Of a stretch of DNA of 64,000 bases, positions 48,798-53,139 are shown in pieces. The stretch covers positions 1 through 64,000 of the forward strand of contig JAJXUI010000014.1 in assembly GCA_021782995.1 (NCBI GenBank), read 5' to 3'. Within the stretch, counting starts at the first letter, position 1, and every line of letters begins with the position of its first letter. Source of the DNA: Pseudomonadota bacterium (GTDB lineage: Bacteria > Pseudomonadota > Gammaproteobacteria > Burkholderiales > Gallionellaceae). Both the position numbers and the translations under genes were made by a program. The notes below the pieces were generated by a model, which was not told where the DNA came from, ran no database searches, and saw nothing but the letters and a program-made list of their open reading frames with translations.

Positions 48798-49640
48798 CTA
48801 TTGGGGTGAAATGCCCAGATTCTTGCAGATAGACAGGCAGGCAGCAGACTGGTTCAACGTATAGAAGTGCAATCCCGGCGCACCGCCTGCTAGCAGGCGC
48901 TCACCCAGCTTGGTGACCACTTCCTCGCCAAAGGCCTTGATCGCGTCGGCATCATCGCCATAACTTTCCAGTGTCTTGCGGATCCAGCGCGGAATCTCCG
49001 CGCCACAGGCATCGGAGAAGCGCGCCAGTTGCGAGAATTTCACGATGGGCATGATGCCGGGCACGATGGGGATCGTGACGCCCTGTTTCCGGCACTGCTC
49101 GACAAAATGGAAATAGCTGTCAGCATTGTAGAAATATTGCGTGATAGCTGAGTCAGCACCCGCTTTCACCTTGCGCACGAAATTATCCAGATCATCCCTG
49201 GGCGATTTCGCCTGCGGATGGTATTCCGGGTAAGCGGCTACTTCAAGGTGGAAGTGGTTGCCGCTTTCCTTGCGAATAAATTCAATTAATTCATTGGCAT
49301 ACTGAAACTCGCCGGTGCTGGCCATGCCGGAGGGCAGGTCGCCGCGCAACGCCACAATGCGTTTGATGCCGAGACTTTTGTAAGTCTGCAGGATGGCGCG
49401 GATATTGTCGCGGGTAGAGCCAACGCAGGAAAGATGCGGCGCAGCCGGATAGCCATCCGCCTGAATCTGGCTGACGGTTTCCAGCGTGCGGTCGCGCGTG
49501 GAGCCGCCGGCACCGAAGGTGACGGAGAAGAATTCCGGCTTCAGCACTTCCAGTTGCTTGCGCGTGGCATGCAGTTTCTGCATGCCTTCCGCGGTCTGCG
49601 GCGGAAAGAATTCGAAACTTAAAGATAGATTTCTGGACAT
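48798..49640 (-). CDS. metF: Methylenetetrahydrofolate reductase
   Basis: SLSFEFFPPQTAEGMQKL; FFSVTFGAGGSTRDRTLETV. Confidence 0.97.
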   Translation of the reverse strand: MSRNLSLSFEFFPPQTAEGMQKLHATRKQLEVLKPEFFSVTFGAGGSTRDRTLETVSQIQADGYPAAPHLSCVGSTRDNIRAILQTYKSLGIKRIVALRGDLPSGMASTGEFQYANELIEFIRKESGNHFHLEVAAYPEYHPQAKSPRDDLDNFVRKVKAGADSAITQYFYNADSYFHFVEQCRKQGVTIPIVPGIMPIVKFSQLARFSDACGAEIPRWIRKTLESYGDDADAIKAFGEEVVTKLGERLLAGGAPGLHFYTLNQSAACLSICKNLGISPQ

Positions 49641-49644
49641 GTTT

Positions 49645-50016
49645 TTAATCCTGGTGATGCTGGTGTGGATTCGGTTTGCGCTCGAACACCAGCATCGTCA
49701 AAACGGAAGAAATGAAGCTGTATAGCAATGCACCGAACACGCCCGTCCAGAAGCCGCTGACTTCAAAACCCTTGAGTATCGTTCCGGCAAACCAGAACAA
49801 CAGGCCGTTGATCACCAGGACGAAAAGCCCCAGTGTGACCGCGGTCACGGGTAAAGTCAGCAGCACCAGCAAGGGGCGTATCAGGGTATTGATCAGGCCC
49901 AGTATCAGCGCGGCAATCAGTGCCGCACCATAGCCGTCTATCGTAACACCCGGCAGCACATAGGCCACCGTGAGCAATGCCAGTGCATTCAGGAACCAGA
50001 TCAATAGCAGGTTCAT
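49645..50016 (-). CDS. Phage holin family (YvlD-like) membrane protein
   Basis: Four TM helices; YGAALIAALILGLINTLIRPLLVLLTLPVTAVTLGLF; lies between ahcY and metF. Confidence 0.85.
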   Translation of the reverse strand: MNLLLIWFLNALALLTVAYVLPGVTIDGYGAALIAALILGLINTLIRPLLVLLTLPVTAVTLGLFVLVINGLLFWFAGTILKGFEVSGFWTGVFGALLYSFISSVLTMLVFERKPNPHQHHQD

Positions 50017-50061: not shown

Positions 50062-51474
50062 TTAATAGCGGTAGTGATCCGCCTTGTATGGACCTTCCTT
50101 GGCTACGCCGATGTAAGCGGCCTGCTGGTCGGGAAGCACGGTGAGTTGTGCGTTCAGCTTCTTCAGTTGCAGGCGTGCCACCTTTTCATCGAGGTGTTTG
50201 GGCAGGGTGTATACGCCGACAGGATAATCCTTGGTGCGGGTAAACAACTCGATCTGCGCAATGGTCTGGTTGGCAAACGACGAGCTCATCACATAGGAAG
50301 GGTGGCCGGTCGCGCAACCGAGGTTGACCAGGCGGCCCTTGGCCAGCAGGATGATCTTGTTGCCGGAAGGCATGGTGATGTGATCGACCTGCGGCTTGAT
50401 TTCGTCCCACTGGTATTTTTCGATCGAGGCCACGTCGATTTCATTGTCGAAGTGTCCGATGTTGCAGACGATGGCCTGGTCCTTCATCTTCGCCATGTGG
50501 TCATGTGTGATCACGTGGAAGTTGCCGGTGGCAGTCACGAAAATATCCGCTTTGTCGGCAGCGTAATCCATGGTCACTACGCGGTAGCCTTCCATTGCAG
50601 CCTGCAGTGCGCAGATTGGATCAATTTCGGTGACCCAGACCTGGGCAGACAATGCGCGCAAGGCCTGTGCAGAACCCTTGCCCACGTCGCCATAACCGGC
50701 AACCACGGCGATCTTGCCGGCGATCATCACGTCGGTCGCGCGCTTGATGCCGTCCACCAGCGATTCGCGGCAGCCATACAGGTTGTCGAACTTGGATTTG
50801 GTGACGGAGTCGTTCACGTTGATGCCAGGGAACTTCAGTTCGCCGCGCTCATGCATCTGGTACAGACGGTGCACGCCGGTGGTGGTTTCTTCGGTCACGC
50901 CCTTGATGTGCTTGATGCGGTTGGAATACCACTTCGGATCCTGCTTCAGTTTTTCCTTGATCGAGGCGAACAGCACGGTCTCTTCTTCGCTGCCGGGTTT
51001 GGCGATCACGGAAGGATCTGTTTCCGCGCGGGTACCGATATGCAGCAGCAAGGTGGCATCGCCGCCGTCATCCAGGATCATGTTGGAGAAACCGCCATCC
51101 GCCCATTCGAAGATCTTGTGCGTGTAGTCCCAGTATTCGGTCAGCGTTTCGCCTTTGACTGCGAACACCGGCACGCCGGTTGCAGCGATGGCTGCTGCGG
51201 CGTGGTCCTGGGTGGAGAAGATGTTGCACGATGCCCAGCGCACTTCGGCGCCAAGTGCGGTCAGGGTCTCGATCAGCACAGCGGTCTGGATGGTCATGTG
51301 CAGCGAGCCGGTGATGCGCGCGCCTTTCAGCGGCTGGGTCTTGGCAAATTCTTCGCGGATTGCCATCAGGCCGGGCATTTCGGTCTCGGCGATTCTGATT
51401 TCCTTGCGGCCCCAGTCGGCCAGTTTCATATCGGCTACTTTGAAATCGGTGAAACCATTGGTTACTGCGTTCAT
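50062..51474 (-). CDS. ahcY: Adenosylhomocysteinase
   Basis: [65 protein letters not shown]. Confidence 0.98.
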
Positions 51475-51500
51475 ATTCGTCTCCATTCATGAATTGATGA

Positions 51501-51569
51501 AAGGCGCGGTTGTTAATTCTGATATCACTCCGAGCCTGGCAGACATCTCTGCTGCAGCGCCTCTCGGAG
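51501..51569 (-). promoter_or_regulatory. SAH riboswitch upstream of ahcY
   Basis: Reverse complement CTCCGAGAGGCGCTGCAGCAGAGATGTCTGCCAGGCTCGGAG; P1 CTCCGAG/CTCGGAG; conserved CGCTGC and GCCAGGCTCGG; pseudoknot AGGCGC/GCGCCT; about 17 nt before the SD. Confidence 0.9.
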
Positions 51570-51577
51570 GAGGGAAT

Positions 51578-51610: not shown

Positions 51611-52774
<1,164 letters not shown>

Positions 52775-52861
52775 AACAGCTCCAGTTTGCGGTGGCTGGA
52801 CAGGGGGTGAGGCGGGAGGGAGGCCCACCTGGCAATCCCGTGTCTGGCACAGGTTAACAGG

Positions 52862-52920
52862 TGAGCGCCGTTATGACTTTGCCGAGCCTGGCGGGGAATC
52901 CCGTCGCAGCGCTCCTCGGC
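52862..52920 (-). promoter_or_regulatory. SAH riboswitch upstream of metK
   Basis: Reverse complement GCCGAGGAGCGCTGCGACGGGATTCCCCGCCAGGCTCGGC...AACGGCGCTCA; P1 GCCGAG/CTCGGC; pseudoknot GAGCGC/GCGCTC; a TATAAT -10 (52928-52933, minus) sits just upstream. Confidence 0.93.
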
Positions 52921-53139
52921 TGGCGGCATTATACCTTGAAGGCTTTATTTCTTGAAATATGGGAAAGACCAATTTCACAACTGGTTTGCTGGCGCACTGT
53001 CGGGTTGGGGGGCGATTGGGCTAGAATGCGGGCAGAAAAACGCATGCTGAACATGTGGAAATTTAATAAACATAATATATTCAAGTACATATAAATATCC
53101 GATGTGCTGGATTAAAGCGGAAATCCCCGAAATTCACGT

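Follow-up and report, generated by a model that had tools for sequence, protein, structure and literature searches.

An SAH-class riboswitch ahead of the SAM synthetase gene metK and its recurrence in Proteobacteria

The metK mRNA of the genome considered here (G000) is likely to start with a genuine SAH-class riboswitch that works as a translational ON switch, where SAH binding, the direction of switching and the metabolic purpose are our reading of sequence comparisons. It is also reasonably probable, if with less certainty, that SAH riboswitches came to stand before metK several times over, in different proteobacterial lineages and with a start-blocking platform that arose anew in each, that the spent cofactor SAH induces SAM synthesis by RNA in this way, and that paired copies at metK and ahcY let one signal adjust SAM synthesis independently of SAH removal. 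The window, i.e., the whole stretch of 64,000 nt analysed, corresponds to positions 1-64,000 of contig JAJXUI010000014.1 (assembly GCA_021782995.1). On its minus strand a TATAAT box, an SAH-class aptamer and a leader of about 90 nt (from the pseudoknot to the ATG) precede metK, and the operon reads [SAH]metK-[SAH]ahcY-PF04020-metF, with aptamers assigned by cmscan and genes by Pfam (Table 1). Because the operon is arranged in this order, control of metK adds to the control of SAH recycling and does not replace it. The earlier note, which placed the riboswitch on metK "rather than a SAH-recycling gene", went astray here, as metK heads an ahcY-PF04020-metF string and ahcY has an SAH riboswitch of its own, the second aptamer having been missed. 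What is new is the gene served, its pairing in tandem with an ahcY copy, and start-blocking platforms that recur but differ.

Table 1. Coordinates of the metK-ahcY operon and its leader elements (positions in the window).
Feature	Positions	Strand	Basis
-10 box TATAAT; transcription start expected near 52921	52928..52933	-	sequence
SAH riboswitch aptamer (RF01057) of metK, full length of the model (1-78)	52856..52923	-	cmscan, 62.4 bits, E 4.2e-9
Pseudoknot 5' strand GAGCGC	52909..52914	-	sequence, alignment of 28 aptamers
Putative anti-start strand CAUAACGGC, overlapping the pseudoknot 3' strand	52867..52875	-	9-bp complementarity to GCUGUUAUG
Pseudoknot 3' strand GCGCTC	52863..52868	-	sequence, alignment of 28 aptamers
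metK Shine-Dalgarno GGAG, 5 nt 5' of the ATG	52780..52783	-	sequence
metK, SAM synthetase, 387 aa; ATG 52774	51611..52774	-	Pfam S-AdoMet_synt_N/M/C
Second SAH riboswitch aptamer (RF01057), between metK and ahcY	51495..51571	-	cmscan, 48.5 bits, E 6.8e-6
ahcY, SAH hydrolase; likely start ATG 51474, GGAG 51484-51481	50062..51474	-	Pfam AdoHcyase; sequence
PF04020 small membrane protein	49645..50016	-	Pfam
metF, methylenetetrahydrofolate reductase	48798..49640	-	Pfam MTHFR

The aptamer sequence, the pseudoknot GAGCGC/GCGCTC and the TATAAT box reported in the earlier note were all recovered in place on the minus strand, and a search with the Rfam SAH model bore out the assignment, the score lying well above the RF01057 gathering score of 37 bits. 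A cmscan of the whole window gave two matches above threshold, both to RF01057, and none to the SAM/SAH riboswitch RF01727 at its gathering score. In a scan of the whole genome (2.75 Mb) the metK aptamer was found with E 4.3e-11, and the same two sites were the only RF01057 matches. The conserved core letters of the class (around GAGGAGCGYUGCRAC, CCAGGCU, and AACGRCGCUC) are present. The metK aptamer is an ordinary RF01057 member and is presumed to bind SAH, with the strong discrimination against SAM that marks the class. The published association of RF01057 with ahcY and SAH recycling, which is not part of the molecular definition, does not extend to the metK copy; the second copy precedes ahcY. 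From the position of the TATAAT box the metK transcript is expected to begin at the aptamer. In the congener G002 (JAHFQY01, Nitrosomonadales bacterium nzgw561) an identical -10 box lies almost equally far from the aptamer, and in the window a consensus -35 was not found upstream of the metK aptamer.

The ahcY riboswitch lies about 1.35 kb downstream of the metK one, at a position homologous to that of the lone SAH aptamer of most relatives, and its leader has the usual layout in which CCUUUCAU, adjoining the pseudoknot, opposes AUGAAUGG at the Shine-Dalgarno sequence with one mismatch; in the ahcY leaders of congeners the complementarity is perfect (CCCAUUCA/UGAAUGG). The longest ahcY reading frame begins at 51486 with an ATG inside the Shine-Dalgarno sequence (ATGGAG), and the downstream ATG listed in Table 1 is the likely start instead. 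A perfect inverted repeat, GCAATCGCAC GAT GTGCGATTGC (51600-51578, minus strand), lies in the spacer that separates metK from the ahcY aptamer, and the corresponding spacers of congeners (L032, L033, L034, and L035) carry repeat-like hairpins that are longer and unrelated; these repeats, which are without a U-tract, are possibly inserted REP-like elements. The PF04020 gene lies within the string of SAM-cycle genes here and in most relatives examined, and has been noted in a SAM-cycle context in Ralstonia and Burkholderia (PMC4239095) and in Ralstonia (PMC3766115).

RF01057 was found directly upstream of metK in 28 distinct genomes from at least four lineages, a total that is a lower bound as the search pattern limits leader length. 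In a survey of the order one genus, Sulfuriferula, stood out with RF01057 directly before metK, and 5 of the 18 genomes searched in its family carry the metK copy. Within this genus two genomes (G349 and G378) have one SAH aptamer before metK and another before ahcY, in a third (G464) 17 kb separate metK from ahcY and both genes have an SAH aptamer, and in two others (G314 and G276) a single SAH aptamer heads metK-ahcY. A search pattern that links the pseudoknot strand with the metK motif EGHPDK recovered all seven genomes of this kind identified up to that point and none of the remaining loci, and when run over GTDB species genomes it gave 35 loci, 24 of them with RF01057 at the site; the remaining 11 had no RF01057 match and were set aside as chance matches or SAM-I type leaders. 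The confirmed loci belong to Thiothrix (T. caldifontis, T. eikelboomii, T. fructosivorans, T. lacustris, and T. singaporensis), Thiolinea disciformis, Thiofilum flexile, uncultured Thiotrichaceae, several unclassified Gammaproteobacteria, two Sulfuriferula and G002. A pattern with a shorter gap, run over 369 genomes of the class, added no new lineage. A second SAH aptamer precedes ahcY in 12 of the 28 genomes; in the other 16 ahcY follows metK and no second aptamer was seen in the stretch examined. In other families of the order there are also SAH aptamers with no match to metK, ahcY or metF nearby (L071, L074, L092, L093, L094, and L097), and these perhaps serve metH.

The 28 metK-associated aptamers, when aligned, covary strongly. 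In P1, P2 and the pseudoknot 93.8% of the cells form standard pairs, and both partners have changed in 11 of 18 pairs (6 of 7 in P1 and 5 of 5 in P2). The pseudoknot is 100% paired and varies across the alignment only one-sidedly relative to its commonest pair. The covariation score of 0.452 was reached by none of 500 shuffles, a count that is not a probability, as the sequences are related within lineages; control alignments with slid partners, which retain this relatedness, scored at most about 0.16 (0.157).

The switch probably operates as follows. When SAH is absent the pseudoknot 3' strand and its flank (CAUAACGGC) would pair with the Shine-Dalgarno and start region (GCUGUUAUG, 52780-52772) and so block the ribosome. 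When SAH accumulates it would be bound by the aptamer, the pseudoknot would capture the blocking strand and metK would be translated, and the second riboswitch would do likewise for ahcY. High SAH would in this manner increase SAM synthesis and SAH removal together and restore the SAM:SAH ratio. For this window the evidence for start blocking is moderate. The CAUAACGGC/GCUGUUAUG complementarity (8 of the 9 bp scored) was equalled in 11 of 500 shuffles, and the predicted minimum-energy fold of the ligand-free leader pairs the two segments and covers the start codon. Opening the ribosome site was computed to cost 12.9 kcal/mol, and 7.8 kcal/mol once the pseudoknot strands were masked, a relief as large in 2 of 100 shuffled linkers; the folding program (Vienna) takes account of neither pseudoknots nor ligand, and these energies are indicative only. 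The mean unpaired probability of the ribosome site was discarded as a measure of switching, since it barely differs between the two states because part of the blocking helix survives, and the opening free energy with its shuffled-linker null was used in its place. By this measure masking makes opening cheaper in every one of the 28 leaders, and in most of them the effect stands clearly above the null.

Every lineage has complementarity between the metK start codon or Shine-Dalgarno sequence and the pseudoknot strand or the letters beside it, with sequences that differ from one lineage to the next. The start codon is opposed in Thiothrix (CUCAGUCAU/AUGACUGAG, equalled in 0 to 4 of 500 shuffles) and in the L118 group (UCAUAAAUAGAU/GUUUAUUUAUGA), the Shine-Dalgarno sequence in L119 (GCUCCUU/AAGGAGU) and the Shine-Dalgarno region in Sulfuriferula (CACGUCUU/AAGGCGUG). 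That different letters serve the same complementarity points towards a switch that turns translation ON, and both this complementarity and the relief energies agree with activation at high SAH. G002 alone among the relatives shares the leader of G000; there the relief is weak (1.6 kcal/mol, as large in 10 of 100 shuffled linkers) and the complementarity to the start is not significant (44 of 500). In the leaders of both G000 and G002 the pseudoknot flank could also form a competing hairpin with a segment lying well 5' of the Shine-Dalgarno sequence; a scheme in which such a hairpin, as in G002, frees the Shine-Dalgarno sequence by way of a third strand was considered and rejected, the pairings being short and not shared. 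Taken together, the covariance model, the 28 genomes with this arrangement, the covariation and the complementarity to the start site support the earlier note's proposal that an SAH riboswitch sits here where it can control metK.

Translation is not the only step at which the aptamer might act. Downstream hairpins could form alternatively and stop or permit elongation, so that control would fall on transcription or on access of Rho. The long leader of G000 and G002 with its conserved block after the aptamer (GCTCACCTGTTAACCTGTGCCAGRCACGGG) would suit this, as would the competing hairpins GCUCACC/GGUGAGC in G002 and CACCUG/CAGGUG in G000. In the metK leaders of Sulfuriferula (L064, L081, L082, L086, and L087) a conserved U-run, CTTACTTTTT, directly follows a 4-bp hairpin, GACG-CTCA-CGTC, and it is possible that this is a weak terminator competing with the pseudoknot. 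However, no terminator-like site was found in the metK leader on the minus strand of the window, and the platforms of the other lineages directly oppose the start codon or the Shine-Dalgarno sequence; such a mode of action is considered unlikely. A change of ligand is more improbable still, and is the explanation we would least expect. Most other metK riboswitches sense SAM (PMC2864571; PMC4239095), and metK-associated aptamers might likewise have come to sense SAM in a feedback manner, but their core letters are those of the ahcY-associated aptamers and no position specific to metK was seen, a comparison that is a weak test of ligand specificity as the extraction motif fixes many positions.

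The distribution of the metK aptamer among close relatives bears on whether it has any effect at all. In the same family an SAH aptamer is present in 139 of 159 genomes, the relatives examined having a single one between metK and ahcY or before ahcY, and two aptamers are found only in G000 and G002. The metK aptamer is missing in three of the five genomes of the genus examined and is therefore dispensable; a search at a loose threshold found no hidden aptamer upstream of metK in these three congeners, which keep a TATAAT box about 40 nt before the metK ATG. The leaders of G000 and G002 are homologous, because they have the sequence after the aptamer (GCTCACCTGTTAACCTGTGCCAGRCACGGG) in common. 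In a tree of metK, ahcY and metF the two genomes are not sisters, and the metK aptamer is therefore either ancestral with at least two losses, or transferred. Such patchiness within the genus is what might be seen if the ahcY riboswitch had been duplicated and the metK copy were a relic or by-product of that event, still folding but without regulatory effect on metK. Against this, the metK copy outscores the ahcY copy in the window (62.4 vs 48.5 bits), the pseudoknot differs between G000 (GAGCGC/GCGCUC) and G002 (GAGCGU/ACGCUC) by a full compensatory change, and the pairing of aptamer and gene recurs in unrelated lineages, at times with no other SAH aptamer seen at that locus. A relic is on these grounds very unlikely, and a functional SAH switch on metK translation is the preferred reading.

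According to a survey of the regulation of these genes SAH riboswitches do not control metK, and beta-proteobacterial metK is without a known regulator (PMC4239095); the 28 genomes contradict the former statement and, for some beta- and gamma-proteobacteria in which metK had no known regulator, provide a candidate. In the literature searched there was no report pairing an SAH riboswitch or RF01057 with metK, nor of a riboswitch in Thiothrix; the discovery and structure papers (Wang 2008; Weinberg 2007; Edwards 2010) lay outside this search and may mention metK. If the proposed control is true, SAH can, beside SAM, set the level of SAM synthetase by means of RNA, a feed-forward arrangement that is achieved elsewhere by the SahR protein. 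The tandem [SAH]metK-[SAH]ahcY layout, together with the differing platforms of cultured Thiothrix strains, opens the proposal to direct testing.

Compared with RF01057 riboswitches upstream of ahcY, metF and metH, the metK element is alike in aptamer sequence, in covarying P1, P2 and pseudoknot, in its place at the 5' end of a SAM-cycle operon and in the anti-Shine-Dalgarno strand adjoining the pseudoknot, and differs in that the first gene is metK. Other RNA elements of metK are of SAM type or belong to the SAM/SAH class of Rhodobacterales (PMC2864571). The latter, RF01727, is also an SAH-binding RNA ahead of metK, but its aptamer is unrelated, binds SAM too and is thought to be a SAM sensor (PMC2864571). 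The SAM-Chlorobi motif likewise precedes operons with metK and ahcY in Chlorobi (PMC2864571), but it is a different motif with SAM as predicted ligand (PMC3766115). The closest parallel in logic is the SAH-responsive repressor SahR, whose core regulon consists of ahcY, metH, metF and metK (PMC4239095) and through which SAH acts on metK in other Proteobacteria; unlike the riboswitch it is a protein acting on DNA, mostly in alpha-, delta- and some gamma-proteobacteria. The earlier note's description of the arrangement as unusual consequently holds for the riboswitch, which the published survey excludes from metK, and does not hold for the regulatory logic: the link from SAH to metK is already known through SahR, and it is the RNA route that is new.
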